Shown in pieces: positions 10,686 through 37,182 of a DNA stretch of 64,000 nt (its first letter is position 1; each line of letters starts with the position of its first letter). Under the pieces are notes generated by a model. It searched no databases and was not told where the DNA came from. It saw only the letters and a list, made by a program, of their open reading frames with translations. The stretch is taken from positions 25,370,189 to 25,434,188 of the forward strand of contig JAVMKO010000010.1 of NCBI GenBank assembly GCA_032164245.1, written 5' to 3'. Both the position numbers and the translations under genes were made by a program. The stretch comes from Sternotherus odoratus (lineage: Eukaryota; Chordata; Testudines; Kinosternidae).

Positions 10686-10809
10686 TAGGGTGACCAGACA
10701 GCAAATGTGAGAAATCGGGACAGAGGCTGACGGGTAATAAGTGACTATATAAGAAAAAGACCCCAAAATTGGGACCGTCCCTATAAAATCAGGACATCTG
10801 GTCACTCTA
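10686..10809. mobile_element. 124-bp miniature element, TAGGGTGACCAGA ends, 8-bp TSD
   Basis: The ends are perfect at the outer bases: TAGGGTGACCAGA on the left, and TCTGGTCACTCTA on the right, which reverse-complements to TAGAGTGACCAGA. It is bracketed by an exact 8-bp direct repeat GGATCCAG (10678-10685 and 10810-10817). The interior is itself largely self-complementary (CGGGACAG... and ...GGGACCGTCCC). The size, terminal repeat and 8-bp duplication fit a miniature hAT-type element. The ends differ at only two of 13 positions from the ends of the large exon-carrying elements at 17345 and 27894 (TAGGCTGACCATA), so they probably share a transposase. Confidence 0.85.
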
Positions 10810-16903: not shown

Positions 16904-17770
16904 ATGTATCTATTGGACAGTATCATTTCCTGGCAGAATATTTACATTAACAAAAAGGTGTAATTAATGGGGTTGCTATTCAGCAGACTCTACTTCACAT
17001 ACACATATAAACAAACAAAAATTACATTAAAAGACCATTATTTCACTTATGAAGTGAACCACTCAGAAGTTAGGAGATGCCTGAATTAAGGTTGACAGTG
17101 TAACCTTCATTTGACCTCCTTGTGTTTATGCGTTATGATACAACCTACATACTATTGTTTTTCACAGGACCCCTGCCTCATTGAGTGCACAAGATTGACC
17201 CTCTGTGAGGATGAATAAAGGAGGCTATTGCCTGCCTCATTTGCGGCAGAAGTTAGAAGCTGTGTCGCAAATTATGAGGGGAGTGAGGCAGGAAGAAAAA
17301 GGAGAATCTCATAGTTAAGGCAACTGATTGCTGCCCTGGAGAATTAGGCTGACCATACGTCCCGTTTTTTACATATTTTTGGACGGTCCCGTCTTTTTAA
17401 CATAAATATCAAATTTGTCCCGTTTTTGTTTTTTCCAGAGACCCACGGCCGGGTCCTGCCTCCTCCCACCCCCTCCCGCAGCCCTTCAGTCCCTTCCCCT
17501 CAAGGCCTCGGGCCCCCCTCCCCTCCGCCGCTGCAGAGCCCGCACGGCTGGGCAGGGGCTGCCTGGCGCCTCGCTCTCCCTCCCCCCCCATGTGGAGGAA
17601 ATGCCACGTGCAGCCCAATGAGGGGGCTGCGTGGGAGGCGCGAGCGCGGGGATTGCAAGCGCCCGAGCTCAGGGAGCCAGGGGGCGAGGCTGGCAGCGGG
17701 GGCGGGCGCCAAGCGGAGCCGGAGGCAGCGCAAGACCGGGCGGGGAGGAAGCGGCACCGCCCCGGGCCCC

Positions 17771-17825
17771 ATGGAGCTGGAGAACATTGTCCCCAACAAC
17801 ACCGTGCTGCTCAAGGCGCGCCAAG
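17771..17825 (+). pseudogene. Captured first coding exon of a GRK4/5/6-type kinase
   Basis: Reads MELENIVPNNTVLLKARQ plus one base of the next codon, then a GTGTGT donor at 17826. This is the conserved N-terminal helix of the GRK4/5/6 subfamily of G-protein-coupled receptor kinases, which begin MELENIV and continue TVLLKAR; exon 1 of those genes ends at about this point. The ATG sits in CCGGGCCCCATGG, a strong initiation context, below a long CpG-rich leader. Two extra residues (PN before NTVLL) separate it from the usual sequence. No other GRK exon is nearby, and the segment lies inside a DNA element, so it is a captured fragment and not a working gene. The GC content suggests GRK6 or GRK5 as the source; this is inference. 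Confidence 0.8.
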
Positions 17826-18300
17826 GTGTGTGGGGGGGAACGGGCGGGGGGGCATGGGGTGGAGGGGGAGGGAGTATGGGGTGGGGGGCCATGGCTGCGT
17901 GTGAGGGGGGCAGGGGGAACGAGGGGTGCGTAGGGGCCGTGTGTGAAAGTGGGTGGAAGTGAGGGGCACAGGGTTGTGTGTGAAGGGAGATACTGGGGCT
18001 GCATGTGAAGAGGGGCACAGGGGAAGTGGGGGGGGCCATGGCTGCTTGTGAAGGGGTGGTAGGTGGTGGGCACGAGGCTGTGTGTGAAGGGGGTACTGGG
18101 GTAGTTGGGGGGCACAGGGTTGCGTGTGAAGGAGGGTACTGGGGGGGTCCAGGGCTGTGAGTGAAGGGGGGTGGGGGGCATGGAGGCATGGGGCCATGTG
18201 TGAAGGTGTGGGGGGGAAGTGGGGGGCACAGGGTTGTCTGTGAAGGGAGGTATTGGGGGGGTCCAGGGCTGTGAGTGAAGGGGGTGGGGGGAAGTAGGGG
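17826..18300 (+). repeat. G-rich minisatellite
   Basis: Degenerate tandem units built around GTGTGTGAAGGGGG, TACTGGGG and GGGGGGCACAGGG recur through the block. Runs of four to eight G are frequent, giving strong G-quadruplex potential on the + strand. It begins immediately after the GRK donor site and may derive from the captured gene's first intron. Confidence 0.8.
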
Positions 18301-19050
18301 AAGCCCCAAAGCGGCGGCGGGCTCAGCCTTAACGTGCCACTGCTTTGAGGCTTCTCCCACTGGCCCCTTACGAGCTGGGGTCTCAGCCTGCTTCCAGCCT
18401 GGGTGTAGGAAACCCAGGCTGGCAGCAGGCTGAGACCCCAGCTGGCAGGAGCCTGGGGGGAAAGCCCAAAGCGGCAGCAGGCTGGGTGCTGAGCCCGCCA
18501 CCACTTTGGGCTCTTTCCTGCCACCTGCCCCACTCAGCTCCCGCTGACAGCCTGGGTGCAGGGAACCCAGGCTGACAGCGGGAGCAGACTGAGGCAGGAG
18601 GCAGGACCCCGGCTGGCAAGGGACCAGCGGGGGGAAACCCCAAAGTGGCGGGGGGCTGAGAGCTCACCCTGTCGCTGCTTTGGGGTTTCTCCTGCTGGCC
18701 CCTTGCCAGCTGGGGTCTCAGCCTGCAGACAACCTGGGTGTAGGAGGCCCTGGCTGGCAGCGGGAGCCTGCAGGGAAACTCTAAAGCAGCAGCGGGTTGA
18801 GAGCTCCGCAGCTGCCACTGCTTCTCAGCTCTCTGCCGCTTTAGACTTTCCCCGCAGGCTCCTGTCAGCGGGGGTCTCAGCTCCCGCTGCCAGCCTGGGC
18901 TTCCTACACCCAGGCTGGCAGCGGGAGCTGACTGGGGCAGGCAGCAGGACCCCGGCTGGCAGGAGCCTGGGGAGACAGCCCAAAGTGGCAGCGGTCTGAG
19001 CAGTCAGCCTGCTGCCGTTTTGGGGTTTCCCCCGGTGGATCCCTTGCCAG
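18301..19050. repeat. GC-rich tandem and palindromic repeats
   Basis: Units containing AGCTGGGGTCTCAGCCTGC and its reverse complement alternate (for example 18372-18390 against 18426-18443). AACCCAGGCTGGCAGC and CCCAAAGYGGCRGC motifs recur at roughly 100-200-bp spacing. Overall it is a cluster of inverted and direct copies with hairpin potential. Confidence 0.65.
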
Positions 19051-21236
19051 CCAGATGACCAAATCAGTGACAGAGACAGGAATATAATCTGCAGATCCTA
19101 ACACCTTTTCTCACTGTTTAACCAATAAACCTTTAAATTGCCAAGAGGATGCCCTTAGCTACTGGCACCAGAGTATGAGAGAAAGAGAAATGTATTTAAA
19201 AAGCCACTGACTTTTCACTCCTACATCTCCTATTCAGGCTTCCCTCCAGCATGAAGAACTGTGAAGATGATGGAAGAGGCTGAAATAAAGTTGCTGGTTA
19301 TCCGTAGCCAATCTCCATGTCTGATATGAAGTTCTATGAAGTTTTCCTAGAGGTTGCCCCATTGTGTTTTGTAGAAGTAGGACAAATCAGCTTTGCTTTT
19401 ACTTTCTATTTGCCACATTATAATTATGATGATAATATTAGTTTATATAATAGACCCTACTTATTTAGTTTTACCTTAATCAGCAAAGTCACATGTCAGT
19501 CAGGGTATGTGAATGTAAACCTTACTCATGGGAGCAGTTCTACCGAAATCAACAGGATTGTTTATGTAATTAAGAGCTGCAGGATTTCATTCCAAATTGG
19601 TGAAGTACAACTCTGTGTATGGTATATAATTTAACACTTTTTCATTCAGAGTTTTGCAGCTGCCAGTATTGTGGAAGCATATTGTATGCTTCAGTCTAAA
19701 ATTCTTAGACTCTCTCTCTCCGCCCATCACCCCCCAGGTGGGGTATGGGCCACCAACCACAGAGCACTCCGTCTCTGTTGTTGGCGTTTCAGTAGCAAGT
19801 TGGTTCCCTACGGGGTGGAGTTGCTAGCCCCACACCCAAAATTCTTAGATTACTCAGTTTAAAATGTAGACATAATGCAAACCTCCGTCTAGTCACTTTG
19901 AGTGCTCAAATTAATTAGCAAAGTGCTTTAGGTCCTTTAACTCTACCACTTTGGAGGATGACAGCACTTGTAAGCTCTGACTTACTGTAACAGTGGTATC
20001 AGCTACTTGTGAGGAGCAAAGTTCAGTCTTTAAATTGTACTTTTTGTAGGTTTGATTAACAAACATTAATTCATTTTAAATTATATTCTAACTACCAGAC
20101 CAAAACATGGTAGTGAACTTTCAAGTGGTAGCTTAATGCAAATGTCAGGTTCAGAATCACTTATGTATACAGTTTCTTAAAATAGAATCAATGAGGGAAA
20201 TAACAAGCTAATGCTCTGAATCACACTCTGGTGTTCACAGGGTGCTGGCAAGTACAGCAGTCTCAATGCACAAGGCAAATAAATGCTCATCTTGACTTGA
20301 CATATTTCTGTCAGGCTTATTCATTTTTACAGCAAAAGTAGTTCTTGCAGAACAGCTGAAGTGTTGCTGAATTTTTCCACAGGGATCATTACTGCAAAGC
20401 CTTGAATACATATGGGTGGTTTAAAAATTATATAGTAAAGTTTCTTTATGGTGGATTTTAACTATAAAAGAGTTTCAAAGAGAAGGGAATTGTTTTTAAA
20501 ACAACAACTTTGGTTTAACTGAGAAATGACAAATGAGGGACTTCCTCAGTGTTTAAGGCTATGCAGTAAGAATTGTAATCTACGTTATATATTTTCACAT
20601 AAATATGAGAAATTTTACTTTACACCATATGTTAGCATTCTGAGTAAGCATTTTGAAATCATTAGCATTTATGGCTACTTTTTATGTTGTTTGTACTACA
20701 TGTCAGTAACACAACTCGCTAACAAAACTACCATCATAGATTTTAATGTTGATTATGAAAACTTCATTGGAAAAAAAAGTTCTCTGCAGCTGCACTTTTT
20801 TAGAACCTCACTTGAAGTCATTGGGAGCTTCATGTGCACATAGCAGCTGTATGCTGTATCCCTTCATTAACATGTGTTTGAGAAACATAATTCCAGTGCT
20901 TTTAAAAACTTGCTTTCACGTGCAATGTTAACTCTGATAGTAGTTTTACATCAATAGATGCTATGGCCCAAGATTTGATTGTTTTAATCCACTCTCCAAA
21001 TTGATAAATTGTTGCTTTATCTCTTAGACAATATTTTGGTGATTTGGACGATAACTAACTTTCACCTTCTTTTCTTAATGTACTTCCCTAGCTCCTCAAT
21101 CAAACTTATAGCAGTTCACTATAATTCAGGATCTGGTACTCTCTCGGCGTCAATCTCCTATTGTGGGTTGCCAATTATTTGTATTCTAGTAGTGCCTAGA
21201 GGCCCCAAACGAGACTGGCACCTTATCATGGTAGAC
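19051..21236. other. Intron, nothing firm
   Basis: AT-rich sequence. The block at 19690-19850 (CCGCCCATCACCCCCCAGG and GGGGTGGAGTTGCTAGCCCC) is GC-rich and is flanked by AAATTCTTAGA on both sides (about 19697 and 19840), which may be a target duplication around a short unclassified insertion. Confidence 0.35.
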
Positions 21237-21298: not shown

Positions 21299-21954
21299 GG
21301 CTACCTCTCTGATTATTAAAAGAGAAGTTATCAGTAGTTCACTGTCAACCTGGAAAGGTGTATCTAATGGAGTCCCCCATAGGTCTGACGTGAGTCTGTT
21401 ACTATTCAATATTTTAATTAGTAACTTGGATAATGGAATGGAGAGTATGCTTATAAAATTTGCAGATGACACCAAGCAGGGAGGGGTTGCAAGCACTTTG
21501 GAGGACATAATTAGAATTCAAACGATCTGGACAAATTGGGGAATTGATCTGAATTCAACAAGATGAAATTCAATAAAGACAAGTGCAAGTACTTCATTTA
21601 GGGAGGAAAATTCAAATACACAACTATAAAATATGAAATAATTGGCTAGGCTATAGTACTGCTGAGAAGGAGCTGGCTGGTATTGAGGATCACAAATCTA
21701 TATATATAAAAGTCAAATGGTGTATGTATGTATATATGTATGTATGTATGTAAGCTTACTCCTTCCACACCATTTGAGCTAGAGACTTGAAATTTGGTAC
21801 AGTTAGAGGTCTTGGGGTCCTAATGACCATAAGAGTCGAAAATTATTCAAATCTCACCTCTGGCGCCCCCCAGGGGTGAAATTCTTTAAAGGCCAATCAC
21901 AACAGCTGGGCAGCTGCTGTTCTCTGTGACATAGTTATGATGTCATAATACCCC

Positions 21955-22250
21955 CTCCAACAGACACCGCACTCGCTCAGCTCTCTGCCCCCTTCCCCTT
22001 CCAACGGAACCCCGGAATCCCTCAGCTCTCTGCCCCCTCGCCCCTCCGACGGAACCCCGGAATCCCTCAGCTCTCTGCCTCCTCCCCCCTCCGACGGAAC
22101 CCCTGGAATCCCTCAGCTCTGTGCCCTCTCCCCCCTCCGACGGAACCCCCGGAATCCCTCAGCTCTGTGCCCCCTCCTCCCTCCGACGGATCCTGCACTC
22201 GCTCAGCTCTCTGCCCCCTCCCCACTCCGACAGACCCGAGTTGGGTTTGG
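21955..22250. repeat. Minisatellite of about 60 bp inside the Helitron
   Basis: Around five units of CTCAGCTCTCTGCCCCCT, CCCCTCCGACGGAACCCC and GGAATCC recur in tandem. One further partial copy lies at 22660-22728 next to the 3' hairpin, so the array once extended to the element end or was split by the G-rich array. Confidence 0.85.
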
Positions 22251-22655
22251 TTGGAGCGTAAGTGAGGTGGGGGTGTCGGGTTTGGTCGGGGGGTGAGGTG
22301 GGAGTGTCAGGTTTGGTCGGGGGGGGTGGAAGGTGTCGGGGTGGGTGAGGGGTGAGGTGTTGGGGTTGGTCAGGTGGTGTTGGGTTTGGGGGGGTAAGGT
22401 GGGGATGTTGGGTTTGGTTGGGGGGGTGAGGAGGGAGGTCGGGGTTGGTCGAGGGGCAAGTGAGGTGTGGGTGTCGGGTTTGTTTGTGGTGGTAGGTAGG
22501 GGTGTCGGGTTTGGTTGGGGGGAAAGTGAGGTGGGTGTGTCAGGTTTGGTCTACGGGGGGTGAGGTGTGGGTGTTGGTCAGGGAGTGTTGGGGTTGGTAG
22601 GGGGAGACGTGGGGGTGTTGGGTTTGGGTGAGGGGGTGAGGTGGGGGTGTCAGGT
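22251..22655 (+). repeat. GT-rich minisatellite inside the Helitron
   Basis: A degenerate unit of roughly 30-40 bp, GGTGTCGGGTTTGGTYGGGG plus GTGAGGTGG, is repeated about ten times with variable spacing. G runs give quadruplex potential. Confidence 0.85.
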
Positions 22656-23429
22656 TTGCTCTCTGCCCCCTTCAATGGACCCCGCACTCGCTCAGCTCTC
22701 TGCCCCCTCCCCACCTCCGACTGACCCGAGCAATGCCGGGTATTTTCACTAGTTCAATATAAAACAACAATATGATGCAGATGAGAAAAAGTCTTATATT
22801 CTACTGTATTAACATAACAGTATACTGTTACATATAAGAGATGGGAGGTAATTGTCCCACTCTACTTGGCATTAGTGAGGCATCTCCTGGAGTTCTGTGG
22901 TGCCCTGTTTTAATAAGCAGGTGGACAACTTGGAGAGTCCAGAGGACAGGAACAAAAAAGATAAAAGATTTAGAAAACCTGATAATTGTGGAAAGGTTGG
23001 GAAAAAATGGGCATGCTTAGTCTTGAGAAAAGACGACTGAGGGGGAATCCAATAAGTCTTCAGATATCTTTAAATGATGTTATAAAGAGGATGGAGATAA
23101 ATGTTCTTCATGTCCACTGGAGATGGGGCAAGAAGTAAAGGATAAAATCTGTAGCAAGGGAGATTTCGGAAGAATTATTAGGAAAAATATTCTAACTCTA
23201 AGGATGGTTAAGCTCTGGAATAGGCTTTCATGGAAGGTTGCGGAATCCCCATCATTAGAGGTTTATAAAAACATCTGTCAGGGATGGTCCAGGTTTACTT
23301 GGTCCTGCCTCAGCGCAGGGGGCTGGACTTGATCATCGCTTGAGGTCCCTTCCGGCCCCACATATCTATGGTTCTATAATTCTGTGCTGTACAAATACAT
23401 GATGAGAGAGAGCCCCTAACCTGAATATT

Positions 23430-27885: not shown

Positions 27886-28073
27886 TGCTGTACTAGGCTG
27901 ACCATACGTCCCGTTTTGAACGGGACAGTCCCGTTTTTTACATATTTTTGGACCGTCCCGTCTTTTTGACAAAAATATCAATTTTGTCCCGTTTTTGGGG
28001 CAGGTCCCAAGCTGCTTTCTAGGGGGAGGTTCTTTCTTTGCAGGACTCCCAAGCGCTCAGGTGAAGAATCTTG

Positions 28074-28164
28074 CTACCTAAGGACAAGTATCAGATGTCA
28101 AAATCGCCGATGAGCAAACTGCGCTCATCGGAGATTTTGACATCTGATACTAGTCCTTAGGTAG
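28074..28164. repeat. Hairpin-forming inverted repeat, about 42-bp arms
   Basis: The left arm starts CTACCTAAGGAC and the right arm ends GTCCTTAGGTAG. The centre is CCGATGAGC, an AAACTGC loop and GCTCATCGG. Only a few mismatches interrupt the pairing. It sits just inside the left end of the exon-carrying element and could be a nested MITE or the element's own fold-back. Confidence 0.9.
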
Positions 28165-28167
28165 GGA

Positions 28168-29055
28168 GAGGAGGCAGCGGACGGAGGGAGAGAGCAGGGA
28201 GGAAGGGAGGGATGGAGAAGGGGGATGGAGAGAAGGGAGGGATGGAGACAGGGCTGGTAACAGAAATTTGGGGACCCCCTACTCTGATAGTTTGGGCCCC
28301 CCCAGCCCAGCCGGGCTCCCCCCCAGCCCAGCCGACAGCGGCTGCCCCCCCTAGCCCAGCCGGCGCTCCCCCCTCAGCTGACAGCGGCTGGGGGAGGAAG
28401 CCCAGCCGGCCTAACCCCCCCCCAGCCGGCGCTCCCCCCCCCCCCCCAGCTAACAGCTGGCGGGAGCGAGAGCCCGGGAGCTGCGTATGCCGGGGCCAGG
28501 CGCACTCGTCCGGAGGAGAGCCGCGCCGCCTCCCCGCCCCTTCCCCACTCTCCAGGCCCGGCGACAAGGGGGGACAACAACGGGTACAGCTGTGTACCGG
28601 GGGCCCCCTAAAGGCGGGGGGCCCAGTACAGCTGTACCCGAAGTACCCCCCTGTCGCCGGCCCTGGATGGAGAGAAGGAGGGAAGGAGGAATAGTGAGAA
28701 GAGGAGGCAGCGGGCGGCGGGCTGAAGCCGACGGCGGAGCGGAGCTGTCCGGAGCCGCAGCCGGGGCCCGAGCGCGCCGGCGGGGGGGCTGCCGGCCGGG
28801 TTTTATGAGACATAATCACATAATGTCTCATAAAACCCAGCCGTCAGCCCCCCCCCCCCCGCCGGCACGCTCACCCCGGCTGCGGCTCCGGACAGCTCCG
28901 CTCCGCCGTCGGCTTCAGCCCGCCGCCCGCTGCCTCCTCTTCTCACTATTCCTCCTTCTTCCCTCCTTCTCTCCATCCCTCCCTTCTCTCCATCCCCCCT
29001 TCTCCATCCCTCCCTTCCTCCCTGCGCTCTCCCTCCGACCGCTGCCTCCTCTCGC
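28168..29055. repeat. Giant palindrome, arms of about 215 bp, split by a nested insertion
   Basis: The left arm is 28168-28248 plus 28674-28806. The right arm is about 28815-29055. The centre is ATGAGACAT, AATCACATA, ATGTCTCAT at about 28805-28831. Landmarks such as GAGGAGGCAGCGG and GACGGCGGAGCGGAGCTGTC appear inverted on the right. The left arm is interrupted by a 417-bp hAT-like element, and the right arm preserves the uninterrupted order. Confidence 0.9.
28249..28665. mobile_element. Nested hAT-like element in the palindrome arm
   Basis: The ends are CAGGGCTGGTAAC and, reverse-complemented, CAGGGCCGGCGAC. Flanking octamers GATGGAGA (28241-28248 and 28666-28673) are identical. GATGGAGA also occurs naturally in the surrounding purine-rich repeat, which weakens the duplication alone. 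However, the opposite palindrome arm lacks the insert and reads straight through, confirming it. The interior contains a secondary hairpin around GTACAGCTGTGTACC and CAGTACAGCTGTACCC. Confidence 0.85.
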
Positions 29056-29880
29056 TCCCTCCATCCCTTCTCTCTATCCCCTTCTCCATCCCTCCATCCC
29101 TTCCTTCCTCCCTTCTCTCTATCCTTCCATCCCTCTCTTCCTTCTCTCTATCTCCCTTCTCCATCCCTCCCTCCCTCCCTTCTCTCTCCCTCCATCCGCT
29201 GCCTCCTCTCGCTCCCTCCATCCCTTCTCTCTATCCCCTTCTCCATCCCTCCATCCCTTCCTTCCTCCCTTCTCTCTATCCCTCCATCCCTCTCTTCCTT
29301 CTCTCTATCTCCCTTCTCCATCCCTCCCTCCCTCCCTTCTCTCTCCCTCCATCCGCTGCCTCCTCTCGCTCCCTCCATCCCTTCTCTCTATCTCCCTTCT
29401 CCATCCCTCCCTCCCTCCCTTCTCTCTCCCTCCATCCGCTGCCTCCTCTCGCTCCCTCCATCCCTTCTCTCTATCTCCCTTCTCCATCCCTCCCTCCCTC
29501 CCTTCTCTCTCCCTCCATCCGCTGCCTCCTCTCGCTCCCTCCATCCCTTCTCTCTATCTCCCTTCTCCATCCCTCTCTTCCTTCTCTCTATCTCCCTTCT
29601 CCATCCCTCTCTTCCTCCCTTCTCTCTCTCCCTCCGTCCACTGCCTCCTCTTCCATCTCCCTTCTCTCCATCCCTCCTTCTCGCTGTCCCTTGCCTCCTC
29701 CATCCCCCCTGCTCCCTACCCCCATCTCTTCTCTCATCCATCCATCCTCTCCCTTCTCACCTTCGTGCCTTCTCTCCCTCCGTCACCTCCATCCTCTTCA
29801 TCCCTCATCCCCCCTTCTCTCTCTCCCTCCATCCTCTTCATCCCTCATCCCTGTTCTGCTTATTCCTCCATCCATCCCCC
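29041..29880 (+). repeat. Pyrimidine-rich minisatellite with 157- and 83-bp units
   Basis: GCTGCCTCCTCTCGCTCCCT starts at 29041, 29198, 29355, 29438 and 29521, giving spacings of 157, 157, 83 and 83. The 83-bp unit is the 157-bp unit lacking an internal CCCCTTCTCCATCCCTCC segment. Nearly all bases are C or T for about 900 bp, so the strand asymmetry is extreme. Diverged units continue to about 29880. Confidence 0.92.
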
Positions 29881-29935
29881 CCCCAGTGCCCCCTCTGCCT
29901 CCCCCCGCCCGGCGCTGGGGGGCCCAGGTGGGGCC

Positions 29936-30102
29936 ATGGCGCTGGTCACCTCGCCCACCGAGCTGGAGTGCCTGGCCAAGCTGCTGTTCTGCCGCAAGGG
30001 GACGCTGCGCCAGAAGGTGATCCACGTGGTCAAGAGCCACAAAGTCACCGCGCGCTTGTGCAAGCAGCCCACGTTATGCAGCCACTGCACCGACCTCATC
30101 CG
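29936..30102 (+). pseudogene. Captured first coding exon of a conventional PKC (PRKCG-like)
   Basis: From the ATG in GGGGCCATGG the frame runs 55 codons plus two bases to a GTGAGAC donor at 30103. It contains [20 protein letters not shown], then [19 protein letters not shown]. This is the pseudosubstrate plus the first half of the C1A phorbol-ester/diacylglycerol domain of conventional protein kinases C. The Cys before RKG and the LFCRKG text point to PRKCG. The first C1 zinc ligands are kept (H35, C48, C51 in H-x12-C-x2-C spacing). The pseudosubstrate alanine is a threonine here, and two conserved aromatics before KQPT are lost. The phase-2 exon end in C1A agrees with the PKC gene structure. 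No later exon is nearby, so it is a captured, diverged fragment. Confidence 0.85.
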
Positions 30103-30406
30103 GTGAGACCTCCCCAGAGACCCCTTAGAGACCCCCGACCACCACCCTCCAGCCCCCCTCAGCCCATGTTATGCAGCCACTGCACCGACCTCATCCGGTG
30201 AGACCCCCTTAGAGCCCCCCCAGCGCCCCTCAGCACACGTTCTGCAGCCACTGCACCGACATCATCTGGTGAGACCCCCCTGGGACCTAGAGCCCCCCCA
30301 GACTGCCCAGAGCTCCCCTAGAGCCGCCCCAGGTCCCCCAACCATCCCCCCAGCGCCCCTCAGCCCAGGTTCTGCAGCCACTGCACCGATTTCATCTGGT
30401 GAGACC
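30064..30406 (+). repeat. Four copies of the PKC exon-end/donor junction
   Basis: A roughly 40-bp segment GTTMTGCAGCCACTGCACCG followed by ACMTCATCYGGTGAGAC occurs at about 30072-30109, 30167-30204, 30238-30275 and 30368-30405. Spacers are rich in CCCC and AGACCCC. The last copy (CSHCTDFIW frame) is closest to the conserved PKC sequence, and the one joined to the exon is the most changed. Confidence 0.9.
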
Positions 30407-30482
30407 CCCCAACCCCATCCCGTTTTTGCCATCCCAATGTCCCGTTTTTGTCTCAAGGAAATATGGTCAGCCTATGCTGTAC

Positions 30483-31249: not shown

Positions 31250-31435
31250 TTCTTCTTCGAGTGATTGCTCACATGCATTCCACTATAGGTTAGGTACGCG
31301 CAGCGTGCCTGGTTGCCGGGTAGATTTTCCCCTAGCTGCAGACTGGGTGAGCAGGGAGCCCCCTGGAGTGGCGCCACTGCGGCACTCTATAAGTACCCCT
31401 GCGACACAGTCTGGCCCTCAGTTCCTTCTTTACCG
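31250..31435. repeat. DIRS left inverted terminal repeat
   Basis: It is the reverse complement of 36969-37154 over about 186 bp with very few differences. The chief difference is at the outer end, where the left repeat has TTCGAGTGATTGCTCACATG and the right (inverted) has TTCGAGATGTGTTGCTCACA. It contains TATAAGTACC at about 31388-31397 as a possible core-promoter element. Confidence 0.95.
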
Positions 31436-31576
31436 CTCGTGCTGGTAGTTGGAAGAGGAGTTCTGCGTTTCAGCGTTCTCCTTATCTCCTAGCTAGTCGA
31501 TTGTTCTCTTAATTGTTCGTTGTTAGCAGTTGTTGTTAGTTAGTTTACATAGTCTTTGTAGTGTAAATAGTCAAGT

Positions 31577-31682
31577 GCAGGGGTTTTTCCCTGCTGCCGG
31601 AGCCTCTGTCTTCAAGGCTCCGGGATTCAAGCACTTAGAGTGTGGGAAGCCTATGCCTGTGGGGGATCCACACTCTAAGTGC
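31577..31682 (+). promoter_or_regulatory. Three consecutive hairpins in the DIRS leader
   Basis: GCAGGG/CCCTGC (31577-31582, 31589-31594), GGAGCC/GGCTCC (31599-31604, 31616-31621) and a perfect 15-bp stem GCACTTAGAGTGTGG (31631-31645) with CCACACTCTAAGTGC (31668-31682). The last has a 22-nt loop. They lie between the left repeat and the first in-frame ATG. A GTAAGTGC sequence at 31698 looks like a splice donor. Function is unknown. Confidence 0.75.
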
Positions 31683-31893
31683 CTCTCAAGTGCCTGGTAA
31701 GTGCACTTGGCAGTTTCTTCCTAGATCTGCAGTACCTTCAGCCCAGGACCCGCAAAGACAGGCGGGGAGCCGACCTGAGGAAGAACCGCCAGCACCCGCA
31801 CCGCTGATTCCGGCGCCGCAGGAGGCCCCGTCGAGTCCGGTGCCAGTGGTCTTGCCACTTGGGGTGCCAACTCCGCAGCAGCTTCCCTCCACG

Positions 31894-34800
31894 ATGGAGG
31901 CGTGTACTGCTGCGAGAGGGTTGCTTGCCGGGGACGCCCCGCAGCAACAAGTCCGGTCTACGGGCAGGCCGCCCATGACCGAGGCAGAGATCGCGTGTCG
32001 GAGCCCGGCAGGGCATGGACACCACTCGATCTCGCGGCGCCGACCAGACTCCCGGCGGCTCCGGTCGCAGTCTCGGCGCCGCAAGGAGTTGAGACCCTGC
32101 TCAAGGCCTCCTCCTGGCCATTCGCGCCACTCGCGCTCTGGCCGCCGATCAGAGTCCCGGCACCCTGGTAGGGGCCGGTCGTACTCTCGGCACCGGTCGC
32201 ACTCCCGGCACCGGTCCCTCAGCTGGCGCCGAGACCGTCCGAGACGTCGCTCCACAAGCCGCTCCGCGTCCCGTCACTGCTCGTCATCTCGGCACCGAAC
32301 CCCGTCGCGGCACCGAAGGTCCTCCCGGTACCGATCATCGTCTCGGCACCGAGACTCCCCGAGGCGGCACCGTTCAGGTAGCCACGATTCCTCGGATGGG
32401 CACCATACCGCCCGGTACCGGTCGAGAAGCCCACGGCACCGGGAGTGTAGAGAGCGGCACCGGACCCCGTCACGGCGCCGAAGGTCCCCCCGGTACCGAT
32501 CGTCGTCTCGGCACCGAGACTTCCCGAGGCGGCACCGTTCGGCTAGCCACGACTCCTCGGATGGGCACCTTACCGCCAGGCACCGGTCGAGAAGCCCACG
32601 GCACCGGGAGCGTCGAGAGTCCGCCGGCACGCGGTCCCCTCGCTCGGCGGGACAAGCCCAAGTCACCCAGAACCCTGCCTGGTCAGAGTGGGCGGCATGG
32701 GGGTACGATCGGCCCCGGGAAACCCAGTCTGAACCCGGGTTCCCGGTGAGCTCAGAGGGTCCAGTGGACGTGCTGGCAGGGCCATCATCGGCAGTCCAGC
32801 CCTCCAAGGCACGTAGCCCTATGGAGCCGGGTCCCTATGCCTCCCCCGTAGGGGTAGAGGCAGTGGCGGGCACTTCATCAACTAGCCCGCCCGCCTTGGA
32901 CCTCTCCAGTTACCAACATCTCCTCCAGGCAGTTGCTAAAAACATGAACCTGCCTTTGGAAGAGGTCCCAGTGGTGGACGACCCGGTCACCACCATGTCA
33001 ACTAAGGGCACTCCGGCATGGGTGGCAGTGCCGTTCATTAATACTATTAAACTCCACACGGTGGCAATTTGGAAGACCCCCGCCTCTATCTCCCCCACTG
33101 CTCGTGGGCTGGAGAAGCGTTATTTTGTCCCAGCCAAGGGATATGAATACTTGTATGTTCACCCCACGCCCTCCTCCCTGGGGGTGGACTCTGTTAATAA
33201 CAAGGAGCGCCACGGGCAGGAGGCGCAGGTCCTCAAGGCCAAAGAGGCCAAAAGGTTGAACCACTTCGGCAGGCAAGTTTATTCCTCCGGGGGCCTACAA
33301 CTCAGAGTCGCCAACCAGCAGGCACTCCTGAGTAGACACCATTTCGACACGGGGGAGGCCCTTACTAAATTTGAGACTGCTCTCCCGCAGGAGGGCAAAC
33401 AGGAGTCCAGGGCCATATTGCCCCAAAGCAGGGACATATCTCGTCATGCCCTGCAAGCGACCCTGGACTCGGCCGATTCTGCGGCCCGAACAATGGCCTC
33501 GGGCATAGCCCTCCGCCGGGCAGCATGGCTCTCGTCATCCAACCTAGCCCCGGCCATGCAATTTAAAATCCAGGACCTCCCCTTTGAGGGACAGTCCCTC
33601 TTCTCGGAGGATACGGATGCCCGTCTCCAGGCCCTCAAGGACAGGCGGGTAACCCTCAAAGGCCTGGGCATGCACACCCCAGGCCCACAGAGGCGTCCCT
33701 TCATCCCGCCACGCAGGAAATTCTTCCCACCTGCGCGCCCGCCCCAGGACTCCTCCCTCAGGAGAAGCCGCCCTTACCACCGGCGGCAAGGGCCTAGGCA
33801 GGGCGGAAAACAACAAGGCTCTAAGCCTTCCCAGGGGCCCAAATCCAACTTTGATGGTGCGCCCGGGGGCAGTTCACCAATCATAAACCTGGATCCTCCC
33901 TTCGGAGACCGTCTGTCCTACTTCCGCCGTGCATGGTCGGACATTACATCAGACCAGTGGGTCCTCCGCACGGTGGAGGTGGGATATTCGCTCCAGCTCT
34001 CCTCCACTCCTCCCACCCACCCACCCTCCTCGTCCCTCTTCAGGGACCCCTCTCACGAGCAACTCCTCGTACAGGAGGTGAGGTCGCTCCTCGCACTGGG
34101 AGCCATCGAGCCCGTACCGCAGGAGTTCAGGGGGAAGGGGTTCTACTCCCGCTACTTCCTGATCCCCAAGGCGAAGGGGGGCCTCCGGCCCATCCTGGAC
34201 CTGCGCGAACTCAACACCTACATGATCAGGTTCACGTTCCGCATGGCCACCTTGGGCACTATCATTCCCTCTCTGGATCCGGGAGACTGGTTCGCTGCCC
34301 TCGATATGAAGGACGCTTACTTTCACGTGAGCATCAAACCCTCACACAGACGTTACCTCCGCTTCCTGGTAGCGGGGGAACACTATCAGTTTGCCGTCCT
34401 GCCCTTCGGCCTGTCCACCGCACCCAGGGTGTTCACGAAGTGTATGGCGGTAGTAGCGGCATTCCTTCAGCGCCGCGGGGTACACTTATACCCGTACCTC
34501 GACGATTGGTTGATCCGAGGCACCTCCAGGGACCAAGTGTCAGCTCACGTGCGGCTCGTTATCAGCACGTTCGACCGCTTGGGAATCCTTCTCAACAGAG
34601 AGAAGTCCACCCTGGAGCCTACCCAGAACATAGAGTTCATAGGAGCCCTACTAGACTCCACGGTAGCAAGGGCATCCCTGCCCCAGCCTCGGTTCCTCAC
34701 TATCCAGTCGGCCATCAGACAGCTACGCAACTGTCCGATGACTACGGTCAAGGTCTTCCTCAGCCTGCTAGGTCATATGGCATCGTGCACTCATGTCATA

Positions 34801-35772
34801 CAGCACGCCAGACTAAGGCTACGCCCACTGCAGTCGTGGCTCGCGGTGGCCTACAGACCGAGAAGGGACAGTATGGACGCCCTCCTCTCCATCCCCAGAG
34901 CCACCCTATCCGCTCTGGCTTGGTGGGAAGACCAGGACAATGTGTGCCAAGGGGTCCCCTTCCTTCCCCCCAGCCCGTCCATGTCCCTGGTGACGGACGC
35001 TTCGTCCCTCGGGTGGGGAGCTCACCTAGGGGAACTCAGGACCCAGGGCCGCTGGTCGGAGTCAGACCTCTGCCTCCACATCAATGTCAGGGAGCTGAGG
35101 GCCGTCCGGCTCGCGTGCCAGGCGTTCCGGGACACATTACGGGGTCACTGTGTAGCGGTGCTGACAGACAACACCACAGCCCAGTACTACATAAACAAGC
35201 AAGGCGGGGCCCGCTCCAGCCCCCTGTGTCAAGAGGCGATTCTCCTATGGGAGTTTTGCATAGCCCACGCTATTCACCCGGTGGCCTCCTTCCTTCCCGG
35301 AATCCAGAACACCCTGGCGGACCACCTCAGCAGATCCTTTATGACCCACGAGTGGTCCCTTCGGCCAGATGTCATCCGGCCGATCTTCCTGAGGTGGGGG
35401 TTTCCCCACATTGATCTCTTCGCCTCCAGACAGAACAGGAAGTGCCTCCAGTTCTGCTCCTTTCGAGGCAGCTCCCGGGGATCCCTGACAGATGCCTTTC
35501 TCCTACCCTGGACAGGGCACCTGTTCTACGCATTCCCTCCGATCCCGCTTCTCCACAAGGTGATCCTGAAGATCAGACGGGACAGGGCACACGTCATCCT
35601 CATAGCCCCGGCCTGGCCCAGGCAATGCTGGTATGCGTCCCTCCTCCGGCTGTCCAGGGCCCCGCCCATCAGCCTCCCGATGTGGCCAGACCTGATCTCC
35701 CAGGATCACGGTCGCCTCCTGCACCCGGACTTGCGGTCCCTTCACCTCACAGCGTGGTTACTCCATGGCTGA
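31894..35772 (+). CDS. DIRS Gag-RT-RNase H-methyltransferase polyprotein
   Basis: One frame of 1292 residues from the first ATG. The frame is open further upstream to 31642 but only from a GTG. Residues about 40-250 form an Arg/Ser-rich domain with a 55-residue tandem duplication. About 335-640 is DIRS Gag-like. About 700-960 is reverse transcriptase, with GLRPILDLR, FAALDMKDAYFHV, LPFGLSTAPRVFTK and the catalytic YLDD at 868-871. About 1030-1150 is RNase H, with D1035 (VTDASS), E1067 (VRELRA), D1092 (LTDNTT) and D1143 (ADHLS). The remainder to 1292 (HIDLFASRQN, FPPIPLL) is the DAM-like methyltransferase domain typical of DIRS. The protein reverse-transcribes the element RNA. Gag is usually a separate ORF in DIRS elements; here it is fused in frame. 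The recombinase frame overlaps the last 148 nt. Confidence 0.93.
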   Translation: MEACTAARGLLAGDAPQQQVRSTGRPPMTEAEIACRSPAGHGHHSISRRRPDSRRLRSQSRRRKELRPCSRPPPGHSRHSRSGRRSESRHPGRGRSYSRHRSHSRHRSLSWRRDRPRRRSTSRSASRHCSSSRHRTPSRHRRSSRYRSSSRHRDSPRRHRSGSHDSSDGHHTARYRSRSPRHRECRERHRTPSRRRRSPRYRSSSRHRDFPRRHRSASHDSSDGHLTARHRSRSPRHRERRESAGTRSPRSAGQAQVTQNPAWSEWAAWGYDRPRETQSEPGFPVSSEGPVDVLAGPSSAVQPSKARSPMEPGPYASPVGVEAVAGTSSTSPPALDLSSYQHLLQAVAKNMNLPLEEVPVVDDPVTTMSTKGTPAWVAVPFINTIKLHTVAIWKTPASISPTARGLEKRYFVPAKGYEYLYVHPTPSSLGVDSVNNKERHGQEAQVLKAKEAKRLNHFGRQVYSSGGLQLRVANQQALLSRHHFDTGEALTKFETALPQEGKQESRAILPQSRDISRHALQATLDSADSAARTMASGIALRRAAWLSSSNLAPAMQFKIQDLPFEGQSLFSEDTDARLQALKDRRVTLKGLGMHTPGPQRRPFIPPRRKFFPPARPPQDSSLRRSRPYHRRQGPRQGGKQQGSKPSQGPKSNFDGAPGGSSPIINLDPPFGDRLSYFRRAWSDITSDQWVLRTVEVGYSLQLSSTPPTHPPSSSLFRDPSHEQLLVQEVRSLLALGAIEPVPQEFRGKGFYSRYFLIPKAKGGLRPILDLRELNTYMIRFTFRMATLGTIIPSLDPGDWFAALDMKDAYFHVSIKPSHRRYLRFLVAGEHYQFAVLPFGLSTAPRVFTKCMAVVAAFLQRRGVHLYPYLDDWLIRGTSRDQVSAHVRLVISTFDRLGILLNREKSTLEPTQNIEFIGALLDSTVARASLPQPRFLTIQSAIRQLRNCPMTTVKVFLSLLGHMASCTHVIQHARLRLRPLQSWLAVAYRPRRDSMDALLSIPRATLSALAWWEDQDNVCQGVPFLPPSPSMSLVTDASSLGWGAHLGELRTQGRWSESDLCLHINVRELRAVRLACQAFRDTLRGHCVAVLTDNTTAQYYINKQGGARSSPLCQEAILLWEFCIAHAIHPVASFLPGIQNTLADHLSRSFMTHEWSLRPDVIRPIFLRWGFPHIDLFASRQNRKCLQFCSFRGSSRGSLTDAFLLPWTGHLFYAFPPIPLLHKVILKIRRDRAHVILIAPAWPRQCWYASLLRLSRAPPISLPMWPDLISQDHGRLLHPDLRSLHLTAWLLHG
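32290..32619 (+). repeat. 165-bp in-frame tandem duplication in the RS domain
   Basis: Units 32290-32454 and 32455-32619 are about 90% identical and each encodes 55 residues (RHRTPSR...DSSDGH...RSRSPRHRE). The flanking sequence is also built of GGCACCG and TCCCGG words, so the whole RS region probably grew by slippage or unequal exchange. Confidence 0.9.
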
Positions 35773-36821
35773 GAGGTCCTGAGCTCTTATGCTCAGCCGA
35801 GGTGCAGGATATCCTTCTGGGTAGTAGGAAACCATCCACCAGAAGTACCTATACCACCAAGTGGACCCGTTTCTCTGCCTGGTGCACACAACATGACATC
35901 GTTCCAAGTGAGGCTACTATCCCACGCATATTGGACTACCTCTTAGGCCTCAGAAATCAGGGCCTTTCTACCTCTACTATCCGGGTCCACCTCGCTGCCA
36001 TATCGGCTTTCCATCCGGGTCAGTCGAACCACTCAGTCTTCTCCGACCCTGTGGTATACCGTTTCCTTAAGGGTCTAGATAAGCTGTATCCGAGCGTCAA
36101 GCGTCCCATTCCACCTTGGGATCTCAACCTTGTGCTCTCACGCCTCGCGATGCCCCCGTTCGAGCCCCTCGCCACGTGTTCCTTACTACATCTTTCCTGG
36201 AAGGTGGCATCTCTAGTAGCTATCACCTCGGCTCGTAGAGTGTCAGAGATCTGTGCACTGACCTCCGAGCCGCCCTACACTATCTTCCATAAGGACAAGG
36301 TACAGCTACGTCCCCACCTGGCCTTCCTGCCTAAGGTGGTCTCTCCCTTCCATGTTAATCAAGACATTTGTCTCCCAGTCTCTTATCCTAAGCCACACAC
36401 CTCTGGAAGGGAACAGCAATTACACACGTTGGACGTTAGGAGGGCTCTTGCTTTTTATTTAGATAGAATAAAGCAATTCAGGAAAACAACCCAACTTTTC
36501 GTGACAGTTGCGGAGAGGATGAAGGGCCAGCCAGTTTCAGCCCAAAGGCTCTCCCCCTGGATTACCTCGTGCATTCACACCTGTTATGAACTCGCGGACA
36601 AGCCGCTTGAGAGAGTAACAGCACACTCCACGAGAGCGCAGGCGTCCTCTGCGGCCTTCCGGGAGGGAGTCCCTATTACGGACATCTGCAGGGCGGCTAC
36701 CTGGTCCTCCGTCCATACCTTCGCCGCCCACTACGCCACAGTCCAGCAGACCAGGGACGATGCGGCGTTTGGGTCAGCGGTCTTACGATCAGCAATGGGT
36801 CAACCCGACCCCACCTCCTAG
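35625..36821 (+). CDS. DIRS tyrosine recombinase
   Basis: 398 residues from the first ATG. The frame opens at 35442 from a GTG, overlapping the methyltransferase end in another frame. The N-terminal half is the core-binding domain (YTTKWTRFSAWCTQH, STIRVHLAAISAFH). The catalytic domain has the first arginine in SARRVSE (R204/R205), the H-x-x-R box in AHSTRAQ (H334, R337), the second His/Trp region in AATWSSVHTF, and the nucleophile Y370 in FAAHYAT. These are the R-H-R-H/W-Y residues of the tyrosine recombinase family. It inserts the circular DNA copy by recombining at a short shared sequence, replacing the DDE integrase of LTR elements and leaving no target duplication. Expression probably depends on re-initiation or frameshifting in the overlap. 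The frame ends at PDPTS with TAG just before the ICR. Confidence 0.95.
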   Translation: MLVCVPPPAVQGPAHQPPDVARPDLPGSRSPPAPGLAVPSPHSVVTPWLRGPELLCSAEVQDILLGSRKPSTRSTYTTKWTRFSAWCTQHDIVPSEATIPRILDYLLGLRNQGLSTSTIRVHLAAISAFHPGQSNHSVFSDPVVYRFLKGLDKLYPSVKRPIPPWDLNLVLSRLAMPPFEPLATCSLLHLSWKVASLVAITSARRVSEICALTSEPPYTIFHKDKVQLRPHLAFLPKVVSPFHVNQDICLPVSYPKPHTSGREQQLHTLDVRRALAFYLDRIKQFRKTTQLFVTVAERMKGQPVSAQRLSPWITSCIHTCYELADKPLERVTAHSTRAQASSAAFREGVPITDICRAATWSSVHTFAAHYATVQQTRDDAAFGSAVLRSAMGQPDPTS

Positions 36822-36840
36822 GTATTGCTTGCAGTCACCT

Positions 36841-36938
36841 ATAGTGGAATGCATGTGAGCAATCACTCGAAGAAGAAAACAAAGTTACTTACCTGTAACT
36901 GTTGTTCTTCAAGATGTGTTGCTCACATCCATTCCAAA
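36841..36938. repeat. DIRS internal complementary region (circle-junction copy)
   Basis: The first part (36841-36878) is the reverse complement of the left end, including the left-specific AATCACTCGAAGAAG. The second part (36877-36938), AAAACAAAGTTACTTACCTG onward, is the reverse complement of the right end at 37122-37182. The join has an AA overlap, consistent with a TT crossover. This is the classic DIRS arrangement that lets reverse transcription regenerate complete ends. Confidence 0.93.
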
Positions 36939-36968
36939 CCCACCCTCCTTCCCCACTGTCGGTTTAGC

Positions 36969-37182
36969 CGGCAAAGAAGGAACTGAGGGCCAGACTGTGT
37001 CGCAGGGGTACTTATAGAGTGCCGCAGTGGCGCCACTCCAGGGGGCTCCCTGCTCACCCAGTCTGCAGCTAGGGGAAAATCTACCCGGCAACCAGGCACG
37101 CTGCGCGTACCTAACCTATAGTGGAATGGATGTGAGCAACACATCTCGAAGAACAACAGTTACAGGTAAGTAACTTTGTTTT
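36969..37182. repeat. DIRS right inverted terminal repeat and right-end extension
   Basis: 36969-37154 pairs with the left repeat. 37155-37182 (AACAGTTACAGGTAAGTAAC then TTTGTTTT) is a right-only extension that is matched by the ICR but not by the left repeat, as expected for DIRS elements. The extension also contains CAGGTAAGTAAC, a strong splice-donor-like sequence in sense orientation. Confidence 0.92.

Follow-up and report, generated by a model that had tools for sequence, protein, structure and literature searches.

A complete hAT-like element with a captured protein kinase C first exon, and its amplified family, in the turtle Sternotherus odoratus

Gene-fragment capture by cut-and-paste transposable elements is best known from plants. 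How, then, did the first exon of a protein kinase C (PKC) gene come to lie between the ends of such an element in a turtle, and is this a single accident? The question is raised by a stretch of 64,000 nucleotides from Sternotherus odoratus (contig JAVMKO010000010.1, positions 25,370,189 to 25,434,188), hereafter the window, in which a preliminary description made from the letters alone had reported a complete Pack-type hAT element at 27894-30474. The analysis presented here supports the core of that report: the element, which we call A, is a complete non-autonomous hAT-like element with a captured PKC first exon. It is also very probably one copy of an amplified non-autonomous hAT family that spreads captured gene starts, those of PKC and of a G protein-coupled receptor kinase (GRK).

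Element A and its PKC exon

The window was scanned for perfect inverted ends of 13 bp whose 8-bp flanks are identical, and two pairs only were found. One is element A; the other, at 31377-37027, lies in a neighbouring element and is read by us as part of that element's own inverted repeat. Inverted ends of 10 bp with 8-bp flanks did not arise in any of 30 Markov simulations. The terminal inverted repeat (TIR) and the 8-bp target-site duplication (TSD) of A are exact, as first described, and the motif TCCCGTTTT occurs seven times in the window, each time inside A or the related element B and clustered at the ends (Table 1); the family end sequence is TAGGCTGACCAT. An exact 8-bp TSD and a short TIR with clustered subterminal repeats are both hAT traits. 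The five open reading frames (ORFs) of A and four of B gave no Pfam family, in agreement with the statement that no transposase is encoded. Element A therefore combines two traits of Pack-TIR or Pack-TYPE elements, host gene sequence between intact TIRs with a TSD and no transposase inside. A 539-codon open frame at 28487-30106, in frame with the PKC exon and ending at its donor, is mostly polypyrimidine low complexity and has no Pfam match.

The exon itself opens with an ATG at 29936, runs for 55 codons plus CG and is followed by a GTGAGA donor from 30103. In comparisons with protein chains it matched PKC beta with an E-value of 6e-15 and the C1A chain of PKC gamma with 1.3e-5; beta outscores gamma because the N-terminus is part of the beta chains but is lacking from the gamma chain. 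We nevertheless take the exon to be gamma-like, partly from features of the gamma N-terminus (LFCRKG, KSHK). Its alignment score of 148 compares with maxima of 46 in 20 shuffles and of 37 in the window with both elements masked. The E-values, the shuffles and the donor at 30103 all agree with the earlier identification of a pseudosubstrate, the first half of C1A and a phase-2 donor. Counting against it, the 55-residue exon, with no more than half of a C1 domain, drew no Pfam match. A protein search with the exon returned no candidate. The exon had also been called CpG-rich: a CpG excess is present, with observed/expected ratios of 0.60 for the untranslated region (UTR) plus exon and 0.76 for the exon vs 0.24 in flanking DNA, but it is only moderate. 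The claim that exon and promoter lie in sense with a host gene could not be borne out, as no host gene was recognised by a codon-usage scan or by Pfam on eight ORFs outside the elements (one sub-threshold match, E 0.02), which is a non-exhaustive gene search.

Several other accounts of the exon were considered and rejected. Chance similarity is excluded by the shuffles, for this exon and for the GRK exon of element B. A retrocopy was rejected because the intron donor and the start of the intron are present, and the reverse direction, in which the element would have donated the exon to PKC, because what the exon encodes is the conserved N-terminus of PKC. Helitrons, which can also capture genes, have no TIR and no TSD; A has a TIR and an 8-bp TSD.

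Table 1. Features of elements A and B and of a third small element in the window (TIR, terminal inverted repeat; TSD, target-site duplication; MITE, miniature inverted-repeat transposable element)
Feature	Position	Strand	Remarks
Element A, complete non-autonomous hAT-like Pack element, 2,581 bp	27894..30474	+	TIR/TSD and family copies
TIR of A, TAGGCTGACCATA, 13 bp	27894-27906 and 30462-30474	+ and -	Exact at both ends
Left TSD of A, TGCTGTAC	27886..27893	.	8/8 match to right TSD
Right TSD of A, TGCTGTAC	30475..30482	.	8/8 match to left TSD
Family left end (13-bp TIR and TCCCGTTTT subterminal repeats)	27894..27997	+	Sampled copies
Internal palindrome, 47-nt arms, 7-nt loop	28069..28169	.	Repeat analysis
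Second hAT-like element nested in A, CAGGGCYGG ends	28249..28665	.	Own TSD
TSD of nested element, GATGGAGA	28241-28248 and 28666-28673		8/8
Long internal palindrome, 127-nt arms, 85%	28673..28967	.	Repeat analysis
Polypyrimidine tandem repeats, 83- and 157-bp units, upstream of PKC exon	28960..29686	+	
PKC-exon upstream region and 5'UTR-like sequence	29640..29935	+	Present in sampled elements
Captured first coding exon of a PKC (gamma-like) gene, with pseudosubstrate and first half of C1A	29936..30102	+	Ends in phase 2
Three extra tandem copies of exon 3' end with donor	30145-30209, 30216-30280, 30346-30410	+	Within 30145..30410
Family right end	30410..30474	+	Matched in 41/41 sampled complete elements (chosen by right TIR)
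Element B, same family as A, right end not found, GRK first-exon cargo	17345..19052	+	Exact 13-bp TIR
Captured GRK4/5/6 first coding exon, decayed, MELENIVPNNTVLLKARQ and then G	17771..17825	+	Phase-1 donor, GT at 17826
hAT-like MITE, TAGGGTGACCA-type ends, 124 bp	10686-10809		TSD GGATCCAG (8 bp)

A family of carriers and a second kinase exon

Exact copies of A's 20-base left end number 1,656 in the 1.76-Gb genome to which the window belongs, and a reversed-pattern control gave none; a scan of viral contigs for the left end gave no matches. Our sample consists of the first 49 listed left ends, in 48 loci cited below by L numbers. For a complete element we required a right TIR within 3 mismatches and a TSD within 2, and 41 of the 49 left ends yielded one, with lengths of 764-2,327 bp and GC fractions of 0.52-0.66. 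Their TSDs are exact in 37 cases and have one mismatch in the other four. With that of A added, the 42 TSDs are all distinct, with a base use close to nnYWWRRn, and just 10 of 861 pairs from different loci agree within 2 mismatches. A genome search for like-ended elements with 8-bp duplications had been proposed as a check on A; its outcome strengthens the core claim, because 41 complete elements elsewhere bear their own 8-bp duplications.

What do these elements carry? Segment 27894-28000 was matched in all 41 complete elements, which had been chosen by its first 20 bases, and the left ends diverge from the sample consensus by a median of 3.8%. The interiors vary in what they retain of A. The segment at 28070-28168 is present (at least 60%) in 16 of the 41 and the nested segment 28260-28660 was matched in none; the 8-mer GATGGAGA is present once in L016. 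By the same 60% standard, the PKC upstream segment (A7) is found in 33 and the UTR segment (A8) in 32, and the coding exon is kept in five, leaving 28 elements with the PKC upstream part and no exon. String tags over all 49 left ends gave PKC cargo at 36 and an exact exon 18-mer at six. Across the genome, a 19-mer of PKC 5'UTR plus ATG has 1,277 exact occurrences (control 0), a count of strings at places not individually checked for element ends, and one that undercounts the cargo, because the exact 19-mer is present in just 24 of the 33 sampled PKC-type elements. The cargo has thus been mobilised, being present in more than one copy with different TSDs.

Every copy might have held unrelated cargo, but we rejected this idea: counting A and B, 34 of the 43 interiors form one PKC-type cluster. 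Non-PKC interiors are found in eight of the 41 complete elements (L009, L012, L017, L019, L023, L025, L026 and L028). In L017 the cargo has an ATG opening, MARPGCPLRGLLLLALIARPSLCAP, which to our eye looks signal-peptide-like, downstream of a ATTGGCTG motif that is presumably CCAAT-like. The interiors of L001, L006 and L030 contain a palindrome, GTTTTATGACTCATAATCACATAA...TTATGTGATTATGAGTCATAAAAC, with two TGACTCA sites, which we take to be AP-1-like.

The window holds a second member of the family, element B, whose left end is 94% identical to that of A over 70 bp and whose GC-rich interior is full of inverted repeats, with a drop in GC near 19052. Its putative GRK exon scored 60, compared with a maximum of 34 in 20 shuffles. 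A direct PDB search with this decayed exon was weak (best E 1.1), and the three matches were all GRK5. An intact version, MELENIVANTVLLKARE and then G, is found in L005, where it agrees with GRK5 at 17 of 17 residues (E 0.0017), and all ten matches at E<=1 were GRK4/5/6. Since L005 has the intact exon and aligns with B at 79% over 1,078 bp, the identity of B's cargo is supported. In L028 there is GRK intron-side sequence, 80% identical to B's segment and 88% to L005 over 616 bp.

History and route of capture

Among the 28 exon-less PKC copies, 24 run from the UTR through the ATG and a C-rich run to the right end, with 65-87 bp between ATG and element end; the other four (L015, L033, L038 and L048) are without the exact string searched. 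In a tree of the ends with 42 rows, a branch supported at 95/96 separates the 28 exon-less copies from all others, and two changes, the minimum, suffice for the three cargo groups. The exon in L027 is without the E-to-V, F-to-V, FF-to-LC and F-to-L changes common to A, L013 and L016; therefore, much of the decay of A's exon is shared with other copies. Exon-tail copies 1 and 2 in A have in common the changes TTC to TTA, TTC to CTC and TGG to CGG, absent in copies 3 and 4. Part of the same set is present in L013, L016 and L010, so decay and rearrangement seem to have continued after capture. The parsimonious reading of this pattern would be one PKC capture, amplification, and later exon loss in the lineage that multiplied most.

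A search of the genome with a stretch of PKC gamma C1 gave 21 matches, the best of which, C43:2692516-2692644 (88%, open frame 439), is a native PKC gamma-like C1B exon; the next matches, on contigs C10 and C12, probably belong to PKC beta and alpha. Upstream of this C1B exon, at a distance of about 1.4 kb, there is a 200-N assembly gap, near C43:2694017-2694217, and the parental exon 1 may lie inside it.

From the observed ends, TSDs, cargo identities, short-marker copy numbers, copy grouping and composite copies, we infer the following source of transposase, order of events, parental locus and capture route. Element A would be one copy of a large non-autonomous hAT family, with a left end of about 100 bp and a right end of 64 bp, that bears host gene starts as cargo and is presumably moved by a transposase supplied in trans. 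An ancestor would have acquired the start of a gamma-type PKC gene, from its upstream region and 5'UTR through the first coding exon and splice donor to the beginning of intron 1. This PKC-bearing element may then have multiplied, via copies with a mutated exon (A among them), and a larger group probably arose that lacks the exon from about the ATG onward. Separately, members would have taken in the GRK4/5/6 first exon and other GC-rich pieces. As for the route, a likely one is that two family members landed close together, with their outer ends mobilising everything between. The fusion model of PMC8903248, in which two neighbouring insertions move as one, predicts a composite layout. L023 and L025 are complete composites of this kind, with an outer left end, a GC-rich segment, GTGTAGAG, an internal left end and a right end, so that this route is open to A's family. 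L003 is a third composite, 91% identical to L023, with a decayed outer TIR. These composites point to capture through neighbouring insertions that were mobilised together.

There are, however, two other ways in which the cargo might have come to lie between such ends. One is that A arose when short hAT ends inserted by chance on both sides of a local segmental duplication or decayed PRKCG paralogue. The cargo is indeed GC-rich and gene-like, with the donor and intron start preserved, but the exact 13-bp ends and exact 8-bp TSD of A, together with 41 other complete elements that have different TSDs, argue strongly against it. Moreover, no similarity to PKC exon 1 was detected in the window outside the masked elements (score at most 37), so a local PRKCG duplication extending past 30474, which the preliminary description had named as the finding that would overturn it, was not encountered. 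The rest of C1A, sought in the window, scored a borderline 41 vs 35-40 in 10 shuffles. We rejected the segmental duplication on ends, TSDs and dispersed copies, and regard it as extremely improbable. The other account is a far more serious contender, to which we give somewhat less than an even chance: cargo gained by template switching or gap filling during repair at the element. PMC8277862 proposes gap filling for animal Pack-TIRs present in a single copy and FoSTeST for multicopy ones. This account stays a live rival because of the long palindromes, tandem units and mosaic interiors of A and its relatives, and the differing exon tails in A point the same way. Against it stand the composites with an internal left end in A's own family.

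Several points weigh against the account of an amplified, gene-collecting family with capture by joint mobilisation. The sample is non-random, all of it coming from contig C1, and the genome-wide PKC count is one of strings. Eight of the 49 left ends were without a partner (L003, L005, L007, L008, the second left end in L023, L030, L040 and L042); the fetched loci of L005 and L008 end 1.5 kb past the left end, and L030 contains Ns. Element B likewise has no recognisable right end. In the tree, support is weak, 50/74, for the exon group and 79/75 for the other-cargo group, and 24 of 38 inner branches are open. The three composites share one cargo type and may go back to one event, and none shows PKC or GRK entering by that route. 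Finally, in the 14.4 kb reaching upstream on C43 exons 1-3 could not be recognised and the exact end strings were absent; parental exon 1 was thus not found in this gap-containing stretch.

Could the cassettes have a function? They might act as mobile promoters or first exons, spliced onto host genes downstream. Such a role would fit the six PKC-exon copies compared, all without a stop or frameshift and five with the donor GT (lost in L041), as well as the CpG excess of the UTR and exon over the flanking DNA. However, variable sites in the five ungapped copies are distributed 5/6/8 over the three codon positions, which gives no sign of coding constraint, though with little power, and there are replacements at residues common to PKC beta and gamma. 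We consider functional cassettes unlikely. A broader proposal would make the family a repeated collector and spreader of gene starts (GC-rich upstream DNA, ATG, first exon and splice donor) that has broadcast more than 1,200 PKC start cassettes, the exon-bearing copies serving as portable alternative promoters and first exons and making chimeric transcripts. The collecting and spreading are supported; the proposal as a whole is speculative, and we would put it at a little better than the cassette function just discussed. If it were true, some of the predicted chimeric transcripts would add a PKC pseudosubstrate segment to other proteins.

Neighbouring elements and comparison with known systems

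Other mobile DNA is found in the same window. The small MITE at 10686-10809 resembles A in its 8-bp TSD, similar TIR and GGGACCGTCCC-type subterminal motif, and its alignment to A's left end was equalled by none of 500 shuffles in either orientation; unlike A, at 124 bp it has no room for such cargo. At about 31250-37050 lies what we take to be a DIRS-type element with long ORFs, one of which gave weak phage-integrase matches below the Pfam cut-off; a protein search with the DIRS ORF gave nothing at E<=0.001. A GC-rich insert at about 21700-22755 ends in ...CAATGCCGGGTATTTTCACTAGT, which in our view resembles a Helitron 3' end. Rfam and tRNA scans of the window gave no matches.

How unusual is element A among known systems? 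A vertebrate Pack-hAT with a captured exon had been thought unusual, a view that is at odds with PMC8277862, which reports 370 Pack-TIRs in 100 animal genomes, mostly single-copy; 208 of them are hAT, and only four cases are multicopy. The frog element hAT-N8_XT bears a piece of the CAPSL 5'UTR in three places. Like A, the animal Pack-hATs of that report have non-autonomous hAT ends and a TSD around a copied piece of a host gene. As animal Pack-hATs are already published, A's family is best described as a highly amplified variant. It differs from the animal Pack-TIRs reported there in that a PKC 5'UTR+ATG marker is present 1,277 times and the first exon of at least one other gene is found in the same family. 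PMC8277862 also uses identification of the parental copy of the cargo in the genome as a criterion, and here PRKCG exon 1 was not found in the 14.4 kb with the gap.

Plant Pack-TYPE elements, including Pack-hAT (PMC8903248), share with this family common ends around differing internal coding DNA, fusion of neighbouring insertions, and subgroups nested by added cargo. The present case differs in its host, a vertebrate, and in that both cargos identified so far consist of a first coding exon plus upstream sequence. In the fungus Pseudocercospora, PMC6710886 describes one hAT that amplified a captured histone H3 to hundreds of copies; there the copies are inactivated by repeat-induced point mutation, whereas here one family has more than one cargo.

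Searches of the literature for the end sequences, and for hAT capture of PRKCG, gave nothing on A's family among the matches listed, and the ends may already be catalogued in Repbase or Dfam. As far as the literature listings show, what is new is the combination, within one family, of a captured-gene-start marker present 1,277 times, a second kinase first exon and composite copies. Such a family offers a natural series for direct tests of how gene pieces are captured and of what scattered gene starts do to regulation.

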